Notes under the pieces: model-generated
Database searches by the model: none
Told to the model about the DNA's origin: nothing
What the model saw: the letters and a program-made list of their open reading frames with translations, nothing else
Source: Phycisphaerales bacterium
GTDB lineage: Bacteria > Planctomycetota > Phycisphaerae > WQYP01
Assembly: GCA_013044165.1 (NCBI GenBank)
Contig: JABEVB010000114.1
Location: 1 to 41,651, forward strand
DNA: 41,651 nt
Reading direction: 5' to 3'
Position numbers and translations under genes: made by a program
In this document: one piece after another, positions 28,617 through 37,049 of the stretch
How the letters are laid out: the number at the start of each line of letters is the position of its first letter
Position numbering within the stretch: position 1 is the stretch's first letter

Positions 28617-30185
28617 ATGGCCAAAGCGCGTAAAGCAGCGGATGCCGGCGGGGCCGGGCTTCTCGGTTTTGAAGCCACACTTTGGGCTGCCGCGGATAAA
28701 CTCCGCGGCCATATGGACTCTGGCGAATACAAGCACGTGGTGCTGGGGCTGCTTTTTCTTAAGTACATCTCCGACTCCTTTCAGGAACATCACAACGTTT
28801 TGCAGGCCGAGCCAAATGCCGACCCGGAAGATCGCGACGAGTACACCGCCAAAAATGTGTTTTGGGTGCCAAAATCCGCCCGTTGGGCGGTCTTGCAGGC
28901 CGCCGCCAAACAGGCCGATATCGGCCGGCTCATTGATGATGCCATGATCGCCATTGAAAAAGAAAACACCAGCCTCAAAGGCGTGTTACCCAAAGACTAT
29001 GCCCGCCCGGCACTCGATAAGGCCCGCCTGGGTGAGTTGATTGATCTGCTCTCCGGCATCGGCCTCGGCGATGCCGCCAGCCGCTCCAAGGACCTCCTCG
29101 GCCGGGTGTATGAATATTTTCTCGGGCGCTTTGCCTCGGCTGAAGGCAAGGGCGGTGGCGAATTTTATACCCCCGCCTCGGTCGTCAAACTCCTTACCGA
29201 AATGATTGAGCCTTACCATGGGCGCATCTTCGACCCGTGCTGCGGCTCCGGCGGCATGTTTGTGCAGTCAGAAAAGTTTGTACTCGCCCATGGCGGACGT
29301 ATTGGCGATATTGCCGTCTACGGGCAGGAATCAAACCCCACCACCTGGCGCATGGCCAAAATGAACCTCGCGATCCGCGGCATTGATGCCGACCTTGGAG
29401 CGCATCATGCCGACTCATTCCATCAGGACCTTCACAAGGACCTCAAGGCCGATTTTATTCTGGCCAACCCACCATTCAACATGAGTGACTGGGGAGCCGA
29501 GCGCGTTAAATCCGACCCTCGCTGGAAATTTGGCTCGCCACCCAATGGCAACGCCAATTATGCGTGGATCCAGCATTTTATTTATCATCTCGCGCCCCAA
29601 GGCATTGCCGGCTTTGTCATGGCCAACGGCTCAATGAGTTCCAACTCGTCCGGCGAAGGTGACATCCGCAAGGCAATTATCGAGGCCGATCTCGTTGATT
29701 GTATGATCGCATTGCCGGGGCAGCTTTTTTACACCACGCAGATTCCGGTCTGTTTGTGGTTTTTGACGCGAACAAAAAGCAACGGCAAGTTTCGCGCCCG
29801 GAAAGATGAAACTCTTTTTATTGATGCCCGCAAGCTCGGCACCATGATTGACCGCACACATCTTGAACTTACCGATGCTGATGTCGCTAAAATCGCCAAC
29901 ACCTATCATGCCTGGCGCGGCGAGAAGTCCGCCGGTAAATATGCGGACATCGCCGGCTTCTGCAAATCAGCCGATAAAAAAGAAATGGCCTCCCATGGCT
30001 ATGTCCTGACACCGGGCCGCTATGTTGGCGCTGCGGATGTAGAGGATGATGGCGAGCCATTCGACCAGAAAATGCGCCGGCTGACTGCCACGCTGGCGGA
30101 ACAATTCGCCGAATCATCCAAGTTGGAGAAAGAAATTTGCAAGAACCTCAAAGATCTGGGCTTCCCGCTGGAGGCCAAGCCATGA
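28617..30185 (+). CDS. hsdM: Type I restriction-modification methyltransferase subunit HsdM
   Basis: [46 protein letters not shown] and [13 protein letters not shown]. Confidence 0.96.
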
Positions 30186-31162
30186 CCCTGGGAGCGCGGG
30201 TGTCCCCACCCGCAAATACGGGAGTGAACGTGTCCTCACCCGCAAATACGAAAGCGAATGTGTCCCCACCCGCAACCCCGGGAGCGCGGACGTCCTCGTC
30301 CGCACCCAAAATAACCCATCATCAATTTGCGGCCAAGGACAGCCGCGCTCCCATAAAAGAAGACACTGCCAAAGCTAGTGCGAAGGACGTCCCCAAAGGA
30401 TGGCACTCCCGTGGCTATTTACCCCATTTTGACGATCAATCCAAAACACAGATGATCACCTACCGCCTCGCCGACTCCTTACCGCAGACAGTTCTCCAGC
30501 GCCTGGCAAGCGAACTCAACAATGCCGAAGGCGATGCCGCCTATCGCCAACGCATCGAAGAACATCTTGATCGCGGCTATGGTTCGTGCTGCCTCAAGCA
30601 GACCGATATCGCCAGGATCGTAGTTCGCTCGTGGCTCGAATTTGACACCGTGCGCTACAATCTTTTGGAATGGGTTGTTATGCCCAACCATGTCCATATT
30701 CTTTTGACGCAGCGCGAGGGCTTTGCATTGGCCGAGATCGTAAAGGGCTTCAAAAGTTTTACCGCCCGTGAAATCAATCGCAAGCTCGGCCGTAAGGGCC
30801 AGCTCTGGCAGGAAGATTATTGGGATCGCTACATCCGCAGCGAGCGGCACCTCGACGCAGCCGTCGCGTACATCCACCAAAATCCCGTCAAGGCCGGGCT
30901 AGTTGCAAATGCCACCGACTGGCCCTGGAGTTCCCTAGGAGCGCAAACGTCATTGGGAGCGCGGGTGTCCCCACCCGCAAACCTGGGAATGGGAGCGAGG
31001 GTGTCCTCACCCGCCAATACGGAAATGGAAGCGCCACCCCAGCCCGCCATTACAATGGCGCAAATATCCTCACCTGCAAAAAATAATGAAGCAGCCAAAT
31101 TAAATGCGGGTGGGGACACCCGCGCTCCCATTACCAACATCCAGCCGGAGCACCGCCAATGA
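30182..31162 (+). CDS. REP-associated tyrosine transposase (RAYT) with REP-encoded N- and C-terminal extensions
   Basis: [12 protein letters not shown] ... [18 protein letters not shown] (HUH) and [23 protein letters not shown] are RAYT motifs. The ends are translated REP repeats (GARVSPPAN...). Confidence 0.85.
30190..30352. repeat. REP/BIME cluster 1: four forward REPs (30-bp period) and one inverted
   Basis: Forward at 30190, 30220, 30250 and 30280; inverted at 30329-30352. Consensus GGGAGCGCGGGTGTCCYCACCCGC. Confidence 0.9.
30955..31129. repeat. REP/BIME cluster 2
   Basis: Forward at 30955-30978 and 30991-31014; inverted at 31106-31129. Confidence 0.9.
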
Positions 31163-31476
31163 AACGCGACCTCGACCTTATCCGAAAACTACTCCAAAAA
31201 TGCGAAGAAGCGGAGCATGGCTTTGCGCCACGTGCAATCACAGTCGAAGGCTACACCGACGACCAAATTGGATTCCAATTGGGATCGCAAACGTCGCCGT
31301 TCGCCACATTGGGAGCGCGGGTGTCCCCACCCGCAAAGACCCCCTCGCCAATCCCCCCACGCGCAAAGAGCACGCAGTCGCCACCGCTCGCAGAAAATAA
31401 TGAAGCTGCCAAACTAAATGCGGGTGAGGACACCCGCGCTCCCATAACCAATACGCAATCGGAGCACCTCCAATGA
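31159..31476 (+). pseudogene. Truncated DUF2513 copy joined to a REP/BIME reading frame
   Basis: [39 protein letters not shown] matches the N-terminus of 31473-31847, then becomes [10 protein letters not shown]...NAGEDTRAP encoded by REPs. Confidence 0.75.
31311..31443. repeat. REP/BIME cluster 3 (forward/inverted pair)
   Basis: 31311-31334 forward and 31420-31443 inverted. Confidence 0.92.
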
Positions 31477-31847
31477 AACGCGATCTCGACCTCATCCGAA
31501 AAATACTCCAAATATGCGAAGAAGCCGAGTATGGCTTTGCGCCACATGCAATCACGGTCGAAGGATACACCGACGACCAAATCGGATTTCATATTTACCT
31601 TGCCGGACAAGCCGGGTTGATGCTGACAGAGGACGTTACCGCGATTGGAGAACGTTCACCGGCAGCGAGCCCAGTATCGCTCACCTGGCAGGGGTACGAG
31701 TTTCTTGAAGCAAGCCGCGACGATGGAATCTGGTCGAAGGCCAAACGAGCCGCAAATGCTTCAGGCGGACTGGCGTTTGACGTAGTAAAATCAGTCTTAA
31801 TCACGCTGACTACCGTAGCCGCAAAAAAAGCATTGGGGCTTGGATGA
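31473..31847 (+). CDS. DUF2513-like protein
   Basis: [21 protein letters not shown]...ITVEGYTDDQIGFHIYLAGQAGLML...SLTWQGYEFLEASRDDGIWSKAK resembles DUF2513. Confidence 0.75.
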   Translation: MKRDLDLIRKILQICEEAEYGFAPHAITVEGYTDDQIGFHIYLAGQAGLMLTEDVTAIGERSPAASPVSLTWQGYEFLEASRDDGIWSKAKRAANASGGLAFDVVKSVLITLTTVAAKKALGLG

Positions 31848-32053
31848 GACAAAAACCGCGTACAACAAACTTGCGACATTCCCCGTCCGCCACCCTGGGA
31901 GCGCGGGTGTCCCCACCCGCAAAGACCCCCTCGTCAATCCCCCCACGCGCAAAGAGCACGCAATCGCCACCGCTCGCAACGAATATTGAAGCGGCCAAAC
32001 TAAATGCGGATGAGGACACCCGCGCTCCCGGTGATAAGGATTGCAAGCAATGA
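31844..32053 (+). other. 69-aa ORF consisting mainly of translated REP/BIME sequence, bridging DUF2513 to hsdS
   Basis: [27 protein letters not shown]...EDTRAPGDKDCKQ; overlaps by ATGA at both ends (31844-31847 and 32050-32053). Confidence 0.5.
31897..32029. repeat. REP/BIME cluster 4 (forward/inverted pair)
   Basis: 31897-31920 forward and 32006-32029 inverted; near-identical to cluster 3. Confidence 0.92.
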
Positions 32054-33255
32054 CGAACAAATGGCGACAGTGCTGTTGGGGTGATATCGCCGTCTTGGAA
32101 TACGGCAAAGCTTTGCGCGGTTACGAAAATAGTGCTGGGAGAATTCCTGTCTTTGGCACGAACGGCAGGATCGGGAGTCACGATCAAGCACTAACCCGTT
32201 CATCGGGGGTCATAATCGGCCGTAAAGGGGCGTACCGCGGGGTCCATTACTGTGGCGAGCCATTTTTTGTCATCGATACCGCTTTCTATTTGCGCCCTAA
32301 GTGCGATCTCGATATGCGCTGGGCGTATTACCAATTGAAAACGCAAGATATCAATGCCATGGACAGCGGTTCTGCAATACCTTCAACCAGCCGTGGAAGC
32401 TTCTACGCCCTAAATTTACGCCTCCCACCCCTCCCAATCCAAAAGCGCATCGCCCATATCCTCGGCACCCTCGACGACAAAATCGAACTCAACCGTCGCA
32501 TGAATGAAACTCTCGAAGCCATGGCCCGGGCCATATTTAAGTCGTGGTTTGTTGACTTCGACCCGGTGCACGCCAAAGCCGCCGGTCGTGACACAGGGCT
32601 GCCAAAACATATTGCCGATCTATTTCCATCCGAATTCCAAAGGTCTGAGCTAGGGCTGATCCCGAAGGGATGGAGGGTGGGGAAATTTCCGGACCAAATA
32701 GATTTTCTTGAGGGGCCAGGATTGCGCAATTGGCAATACCGGGAAACGGGAGTTAAATTCCTTAACATTAGGTGTATAGCGGATGGCGACCTCGACATGC
32801 CAAGGGCTAATTCGATCAGTGAGACCGAATTTGTGAGCAGGTACTCCCATTTCGCCTTATCTGAGGACGATATCGTTATTTCAACGTCCGGAACGCTCGG
32901 TCGGCTAGCCATCGTCCGGCAGGATCACCTTCCGGCAATGTTAAATACGTCAATCATCCGTATGCGAGGGCGTGGGTCCCTTGCATTGGGGTACCTATGG
33001 AACTTCCTGCAGTCAGCGTATTTTCTGGAAGAGATGTTCGCCGCCGCATGCGGGAGCGTACAATTAAATTTCGGGCCGACGCACCTGAACAGCATAAAAC
33101 TCGTAATGCCCCCGGGCCATCTGGTCGAGAGCTTCGAACAAACAGCCCAGCCGATTATTAGACAATCGCTTCGCAACCGCCGCGTCATCCATGCTGTTGG
33201 GGCATACCGCGACGCCATTCTCCCCAAGCTCTTATCTGGCGAACTCGCTGTTTAG
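32050..33255 (+). CDS. hsdS: Type I restriction-modification specificity subunit HsdS
   Basis: LRLPPLPIQKRIAHILGTLDDKIELNRRMNETLEAMARAIFKSWFVDFDPV central conserved region; C-terminal RDAILPKLLSGEL. Confidence 0.94.
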   Translation: MTNKWRQCCWGDIAVLEYGKALRGYENSAGRIPVFGTNGRIGSHDQALTRSSGVIIGRKGAYRGVHYCGEPFFVIDTAFYLRPKCDLDMRWAYYQLKTQDINAMDSGSAIPSTSRGSFYALNLRLPPLPIQKRIAHILGTLDDKIELNRRMNETLEAMARAIFKSWFVDFDPVHAKAAGRDTGLPKHIADLFPSEFQRSELGLIPKGWRVGKFPDQIDFLEGPGLRNWQYRETGVKFLNIRCIADGDLDMPRANSISETEFVSRYSHFALSEDDIVISTSGTLGRLAIVRQDHLPAMLNTSIIRMRGRGSLALGYLWNFLQSAYFLEEMFAAACGSVQLNFGPTHLNSIKLVMPPGHLVESFEQTAQPIIRQSLRNRRVIHAVGAYRDAILPKLLSGELAV

Positions 33256-33286: not shown

Positions 33287-33808
33287 ATGTTGACCAATCT
33301 TATCCCGGTAATTATCGGCGGGATATTGGCAATAGCCGGTGGCGTCTTTGCGCAAATTTACCAGCATCGTAAAAGCACTCAGACTATTAAACATGCTTTG
33401 CTTGCCGAAATTGCAGCAACGTTGAAAATTATAGAAGCCCGAGAGTATATTCTACGCATCGAACGCCGAATCGGCGCGGGCAAGCCATTCGATGAATCCT
33501 TCTTCTTCACGATAGGCATGCGGGAGAAATATTTTTTAGTCTACGAAAACAATGCCGATAAGCTCGGCTACTTAAAGCCTGAATTAGCCCATGACATCGC
33601 CACTTTTTATGCACTGATCTTCTCAGTTATTGAGGATGTGAAAGAACCGCCGCCCGGCCAAAGCCCCCGCAATCGTTCCGTACCGGAATGGGAGCAGACG
33701 CTAAAACTCGCCAAAGAAGCCATCGCCATAGGCGAAATAATCGCGGGAGCGCGGGTGTCCTCACCCGCCCTTATGGGAGCGCGGACGTCCTCGTCCGCAA
33801 CAAAATAG
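33287..33808 (+). CDS. Hypothetical single-TM protein between hsdS and hsdR, with REP-encoded C-terminus
   Basis: N-terminal TM (LIPVIIGGILAIAGGVFAQIY); ends [21 protein letters not shown], encoded by two REPs. Confidence 0.65.
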   Translation: MLTNLIPVIIGGILAIAGGVFAQIYQHRKSTQTIKHALLAEIAATLKIIEAREYILRIERRIGAGKPFDESFFFTIGMREKYFLVYENNADKLGYLKPELAHDIATFYALIFSVIEDVKEPPPGQSPRNRSVPEWEQTLKLAKEAIAIGEIIAGARVSSPALMGARTSSSATK

Positions 33809-33846
33809 CCCGCCATCCACTTGCGGCTGAGGACAGCCGCGCTCCC
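33745..33846. repeat. REP/BIME cluster 5
   Basis: 33745-33768 and 33775-33798 forward; 33823-33846 inverted. Confidence 0.9.
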
Positions 33847-33908: not shown

Positions 33909-36900
33909 ATGACAGCGAATCGTCACAACACCGCAAAAATCACATTTCTCGACGAAGCTCAAATCGAGGCCGAACTGATTCGAATTTTTAAAGACCTTGG
34001 CTATAACTATGCCAACGGACCCGATATCGCCCATGACGGCATCAGCCCCGAACGGGCGGATTACAGCGAGGTATTGCTGATTCGGCGGCTGCGCAAGGCC
34101 TTGGGGCGCTTGAATCCCAACCTGCCGCCGGCGGCACTCGAAGAAGCACTCCGCAAAGTCATGCTCACCGAAAGCCCCAGCCTGCTCGAAAACAATCGCC
34201 GTAATCATCAATGGCTGCTCGATGGCGTCCCTGTGGAATATCGCAAGAAAGACGGCCCCATTCAGCATGACAATGCCCGCCTGATGGATTGGGACAATAT
34301 AGCAAACAATGAATTTCTCGCCGTTAATCAATTCACAGTCATCGAAGGCAATCAAAACCGTCGGGCGGATGTGGTGCTATTTATTAACGGCCTGCCGCTG
34401 GTTGTGGTGGAACTTAAAAACCCGGCCGATGCCAATGCCACTATCAAACGAGCCTTTCGGCAACTGCAAACGTATCAAAGGCAAATTTCAAGCCTGTTTG
34501 CATTTAGCGAACTGCTGGTTATCAGCGACGGCCTCAGCGCCCGCGCCGGCACCCTCACCGCAGATTGGGAACGCTTTATGCCCTGGCGCACCATTGATGG
34601 CACCGGTCTGGCCCCAGATTCATTGCCGCAGATGGATGTGCTTGCCCGCGGCATGTTCGAGCCGGGCCGCCTGTTGGATTTAATTCGCTTCTTTACCGTC
34701 TTTGAAAAAAACGGGGTAAACGTCTCGAAAAAAATCGCCGGCTACCACCAATATTACGCCGTCAATAAGGCGGTTGACTGCACGCTGCGCGCAACCGCAC
34801 CCGCGGGTGATCGGCGAATCGGCGTGGTATGGCACACGCAGGGCAGCGGCAAAAGTCTTTCGATGGCTTTTTACACCGGTAAAATCATTCAACAGTCCGC
34901 TATGGCCAACCCCACCGTCATTATCCTCACCGACCGCAATGATCTCGACGATCAGCTTTTCGGTACGTTTTCGCGCTGCTGTGACCTGCTCCGGCAGAAT
35001 CCGGCGCAGGCGCAAGACCGGACGCACCTACGGCAGCTCCTGACGGTTGCATCCGGTGGTGTGGTGTTTACCACCATCCAGAAGTTTTTGCCGGAGAATA
35101 GAGGCGATACATTTCCGCTGCTTTCTGATCGGCGAAACATTGTGGTAATTGCCGATGAGGCGCACCGCAGCCAATACGACTTTATTGATGGCTTCGCCCG
35201 CCACATGCGCGATGCCCTGCCCAATGCCAGTTTCATCGGCTTTACCGGTACGCCCATTGAAGGCACCGACAAAAGCACTCCGGCGGTCTTTGGCGATTAC
35301 ATTGATATCTATGATATTCAACGGGCGGTGGACGACGGTGCCACGGTCCCCATTTATTATGAGGCTCGGCTGGCCAAGATCAGCCTTTCTGAAACTGAAA
35401 AGCCCAAGATTGACGCCGCCTTTGAAGAAGTCACCGAGGGCGAAGAAGAATCCGCCCGCCGTGCGGCCAAAAGTCGTTGGGCAAAGGTAGAGGCGCTGGT
35501 CGGCACGCCCAAACGCATTGGACTGGTCGCGGAAGATATTGTTCGACATTTTCAAGAGCGTCTCTCCGCCATAGATGGCAAGGCCATGGTTGTGTGCATG
35601 AGCCGGCGAATATGCGTGGAACTTTATGATGCCTTGATTCGCCTGCGGCCCGATTGGCATAGCGACGATGATGGCAAAGGTGCTATCAAGATTGTGATGA
35701 CCGGCTCAGCATCGGACCCGCTTGGGTGGCAGCAGCATATTCGTAATAAGCCGCGCCGCGAATCATTGGCCGAACGTTTCAAGAACCCGAAAGATCCCCT
35801 TAAAGTTATTATTGTGCGCGATATGTGGCTTACCGGCTTTGATGCCCCCTGTCTGCATACAATGTACCTCGATAAGCCAATGCGCGGCCATGGCCTGATG
35901 CAGGCCATCGCCCGCGTGAACCGCGTATTCGGCGACAAGCCCGGCGGGCTGGTGGTGGACTATCTTGGTCTCGCCGATCAATTGAAAAAGGCGCTCGCGG
36001 CATACACCGAAGGCGGTGGCAGAGGGGATGCGGCTGTAGATCAGACCGAAGCGGTCGCCGTCATGCGGCAAAAGTTTGCTGCTGTGTCCAAAATGTTCGA
36101 CGGCTTCGACTATGAAGCGGTATTGAACGGTCCTGCTTCCAGGCGCATGGCTGGGATCGCCCAGGCAATGGAACACATTCTGCAATTAGAAGATGGTAAA
36201 AAGCGCTATCTGCAAGCCGTGACTGAGTTATCCCAGGCATTCGCATTATCTGTGCCTGACGATGAGGCTCTGCGTATCCGGGATAAAGTGGGGTTTTTCC
36301 AGGCGGTACGGGCCGGATTGACCAAAGCCTTGGAGGCTGCCGGTGGAAAGACCGGTGAAGACATTGACCTGGCGATTCGGCAGATTGTTTCACAGGCGGT
36401 CATTTCCGATCAGGTGATTGATATCTTTGCGGCGGCCGGGCTTAAGTCGCCCGATATCTCGATTCTATCGGATGATTTTCTACGGGAAGTGCGCGATCTG
36501 CCGCAACGACATCTCGCCGTGGAATTGCTGCAGAAATTAATCAACGACGAAATTAAAGCCCGGTTGCGTCGCAACGTAGTTCAAGGCCGATCATTTGCCG
36601 AGATGCTCGAAGAATCCATTCGCCGCTACCAGAACCGTTCAATCGAGGCCGCGCAGGTCATTTCCGAACTCATCGAACTCGCCAGACAAATGCGCGCGGC
36701 CCAAAACCGTGGCCAGCAGCTTGGCCTTACCGAGGATGAAGTGGCCTTCTACGATGCATTGGAGGTTAACGACAGCGCCGTAAAAGTCCTCGGCGAGCCG
36801 ACGCTCAAGAGCATCGCGCGCGAACTCGTCGAATCGGTCAGAAAAAACGCCACCATTGATTGGACCGTCCGCGAATCCGCCCGTGCCGGCATCCGCGTCA

Positions 36901-37010
36901 TTATCAAACGCATCCTGAAAAAATACGGCTACCCGCCCGACAAACAGGAATCCGCAACAGCCTTGGTCATGCAGCAGGCCGAGGTAATCTGCGGCGCACC
37001 ATTGCCCTAA
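33909..37010 (+). CDS. hsdR: Type I restriction endonuclease subunit HsdR
   Basis: [22 protein letters not shown] nuclease motif, [31 protein letters not shown] and [35 protein letters not shown]. Confidence 0.97.
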
Positions 37011-37025
37011 GCCACTCCCAACCCC

Positions 37026-37049
37026 GGGAGCGCGGGTGTCCTCACCCGC
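37026..37049 (+). repeat. Solitary REP
   Basis: GGGAGCGCGGGTGTCCTCACCCGC, downstream of hsdR. Confidence 0.9.

Follow-up and report, generated by a model that had tools for sequence, protein, structure and literature searches.

A probable RAYT-REP unit within translated DNA of a type I restriction-modification operon, from a RAYT clade that appears to live inside coding DNA

The closest described systems are REPtrons, in which a RAYT (TnpA-REP) is flanked by inverted REPs and the REPs are mostly intergenic (Nunvar 2010, PMC2817692; PMC8266576). The units described here resemble REPtrons in their HUH/Tyr RAYT core and in their REP and inverted REP hairpins, with GTRG-like tags at most of the nested hairpins examined, but differ in that both the REPs and the RAYT lie within translated frames, either in host genes or at ATGA junctions. 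Translated REPs within genes are also known. According to the accessible parts of a 2013 report, they occur in O. terrae uvrA, in tRNA synthetases and in other genes, in clusters encoding up to 82 aa (PMC3733652); these parts concern REPs only and mention no RAYT gene inside a host gene. Rickettsia palindromic elements are palindromic repeats of ~150 bp lying in frame within protein genes, where the encoded peptide is tolerated (PMC10969869). They have no transposase inside, whereas the present units carry one with intact catalytic motifs. IS200/IS605 elements share the Y1 HUH transposase and the subterminal hairpins, but the RAYT of our locus fell below the IS200 cut-off and above the RAYT cut-off, and no TnpB was seen in its operon. 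Inteins with homing endonucleases are in-frame, gene-faithful parasites of essential genes that spread by homing transfer. The nested RAYTs are likewise in frame in essential genes and gene-faithful, with homing-like transfer in one case, but no splicing domain was found in them and an HUH transposase takes the place of the endonuclease. In a survey of the superfamily, RAYT-like proteins of unexpected length were set aside as fusions or annotation errors (PMC6006769). Our literature search, with most subscription papers and bioRxiv preprints outside its range, turned up no description of a complete RAYT gene lying in frame within another gene; intragenic REPs are known, and RAYT genes nested in host genes are apparently new.

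The window, that is, the whole analysed stretch of 41,651 nucleotides from a Phycisphaerales bacterium, contains hsdM, hsdS and hsdR, which together constitute a type I restriction-modification (RM) operon by Pfam and NCBIfam. Its features are as follows, with the basis of each assignment in parentheses.

28617..30185, +, hsdM, N6 DNA methylase subunit (Pfam HsdM_N, N6_Mtase; ORF)
30170..30174, +, Shine-Dalgarno-like GGAGG tract, 7 nt 5' of the RAYT start (sequence)
30182-30185, +, ATGA shared by the hsdM TGA and the RAYT ATG (sequence)
30182..31162, +, predicted RAYT ORF with REPs in the translated frame at each end (NF047646, Y1_Tnp)
30190..30303, +, four forward REPs, in frame, period 30 (phase check; ssDNA hairpin z = -2.6)
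30329..30352, -, inverted REP read AAKDSRAP (phase check)
30955..31014, +, two forward REPs 36 nt apart in the RAYT C-terminal tail (phase check)
31106..31129, -, inverted REP in the RAYT tail, read AGGDTRAP (phase check; ssDNA hairpin z = -3.0)
31159..31476, +, predicted ORF with truncated DUF2513 copy and REP block (partial DUF2513 match)
31311..31334, +, forward REP in the truncated DUF2513 ORF (phase check)
31420..31443, -, inverted REP in the truncated DUF2513 ORF (phase check)
31473..31847, +, full DUF2513 gene (PF10711, 80.8 bits)
31844..32053, +, predicted 69-aa REP ORF, its ATGA end overlapping hsdS (ORF)
31897..31920, +, forward REP in the REP ORF (phase check)
32006..32029, -, inverted REP in the REP ORF (phase check)
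32050..33255, +, hsdS, specificity subunit (Methylase_S)
33287..33808, +, ORF of unassigned function with a C-terminus formed by two in-frame REPs, 20 residues (ORF)
33823..33846, -, inverted REP, untranslated (phase check)
33909..37010, +, hsdR (Pfam/NCBIfam hsdR)
37026-37049, untranslated REP 3' of hsdR (sequence match)

The first-pass annotation had described five successive ATGA overlaps from hsdM to hsdS, and the sequence and the ORF list bore out the exact position of each. All five are present, but one junction is a duplicate of another and the independent events are only four. A Shine-Dalgarno-like tract precedes four of the five starts in the chain. The RAYT itself scored 105.8 bits with NF047646 (cut-off 80) and 33.1 bits with the IS200 transposase model NF033573, below its cut-off of 55; its structure match was the RAYT of PDB 4er8. 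The HUH motif and the catalytic Tyr were intact in the window RAYT and in all 23 nested copies aligned. By sequence comparison, the RAYT is under purifying selection; dN/dS was ~0.1-0.3, a ratio that is near saturation for many pairs at this distance, and we relied mainly on pS/pN contrasts. The protein may still mobilise REPs.

The REPs flank the RAYT gene in inverted orientation, in the window as in the nested units described below. As had been claimed, they are read in one frame per orientation: all ten forward REPs within ORFs lie in phase 2 (GARVSPPAN) and all four inverted ones in phase 0 (AGxDTRAP), and the forward spacings of 30, 30, 30 and 36 are correct. The frame of the hsdM-hsdS stretch is reused at the 3' end of the next gene (33287-33808), which gives 14 in-frame copies overall. 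The accompanying statement that the REP has no stop in any plus-strand frame holds for perfect copies, but a TGA occurs in the third phase of three others, the one at 30220 and the inverted ones at 31420 and 32006. In G016, a REP-rich relative used as a control, the same two phases were the most open around dispersed REPs (12/20). Frame uniformity alone is weak evidence because stop content favours two phases, as seen in both the window stop check and G016, and we dropped it as the main evidence. Across the 3.58-Mb assembly, 14 of 18 REP matches lay inside this RM locus; the REP is largely confined there, and the many dispersed intergenic copies typical of GTAG-type REPs were not found. The window REP has no GTAG/GTRG tag 5' of the hairpin, and GGGAGC precedes the stem instead.

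Stronger evidence came from the same locus in relatives. In G013 (Phycisphaerales bacterium clean5707), hsdM is followed by ATGA and a RAYT with REPs in its ORF, which runs into hsdS through an 11-nt overlap without DUF2513; its RAYT start is likewise preceded by a Shine-Dalgarno-like GGAGG. G027 holds a decayed copy, consisting of the HsdM C-terminus, ATGA, a RAYT with two stops, ATGA, DUF2513, TGATG, a REP ORF and ATGA, without hsdS. Its DUF2513 is 70% identical to the full DUF2513 in the same place in the window, and its REP ORF, of ~80 codons, is a homologue of the 69-aa one. Only the end of HsdM, ATGA and in-frame REPs remain in G022. In G018 the HsdM stop is now TAA, a few bases upstream, and the REP frame is the same as in the window. 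DUF2513 and the REP ORF are thus variably present, and the hsdM-ATGA-RAYT junction and the REP frame recur in G013, G027 and G022, a recurrence across relatives that is beyond chance. As read from the sequence, the architecture, the frames and the conserved junctions are firm. The tight stop/start arrangement before hsdS is also kept despite a change of frame, at -4 nt in the window, -11 nt in G013 and +2 nt in L193, where the RAYT stops 2 nt ahead of hsdS. The window RAYT core (30392-30940) is 73% identical to that of G013, with a pS of 0.65 against 0.61 for HsdM; given this similar synonymous divergence, RAYT and hsdM have been inherited or transferred together. No RAYT stands beside hsdM-hsdS in the class-level loci of G056, G028 and G029; the RAYT is therefore no constant component of type I systems within the class.

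RAYTs were also found between the genes of other operons. A family search with the RAYT core retrieved RAYTs carrying quite different REPs, which are also read at both ORF ends. In G024 a RAYT lies between type III-like mod (N6_N4_Mtase) and res (ResIII) with ATGA on each side, and in G017 it follows mod. Another (G012:C113) follows a methylase-like ORF whose C-terminus equals that of the L132 host. At L196 the RAYT is between hsdS and hsdR, and at L205 it adjoins an hsdM-like gene. With canonical RAYTs (n=16) as the control for background, the RAYT ATG overlapped the upstream gene by 4 or 1 nt in 8 of 24 clade RAYTs vs 0 of 16 canonical ones (p = 0.013, a generous value given the few independent lineages). 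Two further arrangements were observed near the window's own lineage. In the window's genome, a second RAYT (L125, G000:C12:1000-7875) is fused in frame to an apparent minimal nucleotidyltransferase, and a type III res-like gene lies downstream of the fusion. In the window's genus (L140, G001:C115), a RAYT follows a DUF5131 gene with an 8-nt overlap and precedes a partial DNA methylase match with a 1-nt overlap.

When 248 class genomes were searched with a ValRS-nested RAYT as the query, 62 of 85 close matches (E 2e-12 or better) lay in frames of at least 540 aa, vs none of ~63 distant ones (Fisher 1e-22, a test that ignores relatedness). Translation of these long frames gave one layout: a host enzyme part, a REP-encoded linker, the RAYT, a second REP-encoded linker and the remainder of the host. 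The hairpins in the two linkers are reverse complements of each other, and in most nested units examined GTGG, GTAG or a close variant precedes the hairpin, as in canonical REPs. Hosts confirmed by Pfam or NCBIfam were ValRS, LeuRS, IleRS, PurH, GcvP, XseA and a B12-binding radical-SAM protein, together with Eco57I-type methylases, a DUF1156 protein and a helicase carrying a PLD domain. For the synthetases, as for GcvP, XseA and PurH (PRK00881), the host models passed NCBI equivalog cut-offs despite the insert. For L132, Pfam detected the RAYT domain only, and the host assignment rests on homology to L130 and visual inspection. The nested examples are mostly from metagenome assemblies; the radical-SAM chimera (L225:4621-6957) comes from Pontiella sulfatireligans F21, a named type strain. 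Two Bacteroidetes-labelled metagenome assemblies (L214 and L215) hold a nearly identical nested methylase, identical around the insert.

Several of these interrupted genes were the sole copy found in their genomes. By PF00133 searches, in which other matches were sorted to the Ile/Leu/Val/Met enzymes partly by score, this was the case for ValRS in G083, G053, G119 and G124, for IleRS in G128 and G109, and for LeuRS in G129; by PF01808, it was the case for PurH in 9 of 9 genomes. The nested positions, the sole-copy hosts (ValRS, IleRS, LeuRS and PurH) and the intact motifs are observed directly in the genes, and the chimeric proteins are presumably made and working. A tree of 57 RAYT cores grouped them by host gene, with 19 changes vs 44 in shuffles, and placed the window RAYT within a strongly supported clade with RAYTs of type III operons and those nested in DUF1156-type proteins or methylases. 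This position makes the ATGA-overlap form of the window a member of the in-frame clade.

We consider it probable that the hsdM-hsdS stretch is a RAYT-REP unit (REPtron) occupying translated DNA of a type I RM operon, from a clade living inside coding DNA. Within a gene, such a unit would survive by having the RAYT and its flanking REPs in frame, so that the host protein would gain an extra domain on flexible REP-encoded linkers. Between genes, the ORF of the unit would meet its neighbours at ATGA-type stop/start overlaps that let ribosomes pass, and translation in the operon may be coupled. Tolerance of the REPs would follow from their short length, their few stops and the solubility of the Pro/Ala/Gly-rich linkers they encode. 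The element likely benefits from hosts that are hard to lose (tRNA ligases, PurH) or addictive and often transferred (RM methylases), and the indispensability of the host may be why units persist. This persistence argument is an after-the-fact selection story, as out-of-frame hits in essential genes would never be seen. For the clade as a whole we lean, by a little, towards RAYTs that are protein-resident selfish elements in single-copy essential genes and RM methylases, sometimes homing, plus ATGA-coupled cistrons of RM operons. If true, an element that is normally intergenic would be found residing inside proteins, and a transposase domain would be part of functional valyl-, leucyl- and isoleucyl-tRNA synthetases and of functional PurH. 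Palindromic repeats would be maintained in readable form, as linkers, and surveys may discard such proteins as fusions or errors. Residence in genes that cannot be lost would then explain, for one clade and in a testable way, the long persistence of RAYTs in few copies.

The first-pass annotation had instead proposed that the REPs were recruited as adaptive linkers maintaining translational coupling in the RM operon for hsdS. Its view of the REPs as linkers stands insofar as they are read through as peptide linkers; recruitment for the benefit of hsdS is not supported, translated REPs being a trait of the RAYT clade whichever gene lies beside them. The RAYT here comes with REPs of its own, and like units sit inside unrelated genes where there is no operon to couple. 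In G027 the chain outlives the loss of most of hsdM, of the RAYT frame and of hsdS itself. Chain persistence is therefore not limited to loci serving hsdS. The proposal is favoured by the closeness of stop and start before hsdS in G013 and L193 though their frames differ, by the Shine-Dalgarno-like tracts and by preservation of the chain through duplications, but the hsdM loci of class relatives without a neighbouring RAYT count against it. It fits the junctions but neither the wider pattern nor the decayed loci, and we regard it as unlikely. On the clade reading, a story about hsdS in one operon would give way to a broader rule, with this operon as a single instance.

The REP blocks may alternatively be mainly recombination sites that shuffle cassettes and hsdS alleles, translation being incidental. 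Two REP-bounded duplications in the window are in keeping with this. Positions 31076-31280 are an 89% tandem duplicate of 31390-31595, an event that gave rise to the truncated DUF2513 and copied one ATGA junction. Positions 31294-31443 and 31880-32029 are duplicates at 92%; the truncated DUF2513 ORF and the REP ORF share this REP block. DUF2513 lies between REP blocks in the window and in G027 and is absent in G013; moreover, the hsdS variable domain differs among loci while the central region is alike. Such hsdS variability is, however, general for type I systems, and recombination leaves in-frame nesting within tRNA synthetases unexplained. The offset of the tandem duplication, 314, is 2 mod 3, as the ATGA chain requires, and that of the REP-block duplication, 586, is 1 mod 3, equal to the frame difference between its two ORFs; the chance that both preserve the chain mod 3 is 1 in 9. 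Recombination as the main role of the REP blocks is an improbable account. Under the RAYT-REP unit reading, duplications between REP blocks in the window would later have added the second DUF2513 start.

A third explanation is removal of the nested RAYTs at the protein or DNA level before use, in the manner of inteins or excised elements, with the REPs as excision signals. Insertion into sole-copy essential genes would agree with removal, as would the apparent relocation between two IleRS sites and the young RAYT of the Eco57I-type methylase. In G014 (L135), G018 (L136) and G008 (L190), pS was 0.14-0.28 for that RAYT vs 0.55-0.84 for both host flanks, which suggests a separate, homing-like transfer into one site. 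Homing as a general rule was rejected, since the RAYTs in XseA, ValRS, LeuRS, IleRS and DUF1156-type hosts have diverged at least as much as their hosts. In IleRS, the RAYT sits at one site in G109 and at another in G128, each genome providing the empty site of the other, and the RAYT tree mixes the RAYTs from the two sites. Against removal, no Hint or intein splicing domain was found in the nested proteins by Pfam and NCBIfam scans, and the insertion points in ValRS could tolerate extra domains. Alignments with uninterrupted homologues put one ValRS insert at residues 478/479 of the G129 enzyme and the second at residues 239/246 of the G108 enzyme; on T. thermophilus ValRS (1gax) they map to 363/377 and 204/210, respectively, both gaps between conserved blocks. 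Furthermore, the linkers were predicted by AlphaFold to be flexible. The model of the XseA chimera (mean pLDDT 83, pTM 0.44) was confident for host and RAYT, with pLDDT < 50 in the REP-encoded linkers 204-231 and 411-424, and its best PDB matches were E. coli ExoVII and the RAYT 4er8. The chimera is thus predicted to consist of two folded domains on disordered REP linkers, and prior removal seems very unlikely. Coincidence, that is, an open REP array in a GC-rich locus with ATGA as the commonest bacterial gene junction, could draw on stop-poor REPs with two phases usually open and on two of the five overlaps being copies of one, but it is already disfavoured and highly improbable, because junction and frame are conserved across relatives and both in-frame nesting and overlaps are over-represented in the RAYT clade.

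Two minor observations concern the synthetase genes. The related RAYTs of L178 and L181 occupy different sites in one IleRS gene, which amounts to relocation within the host gene. In addition, a ValRS without a RAYT in G109 (L276, G109:C2:117000-122500) has an extra stretch of ~135 residues made of in-frame repeat peptides (SRDREGAVS, LPHGRGS), indicating a translated repeat array in another essential gene.
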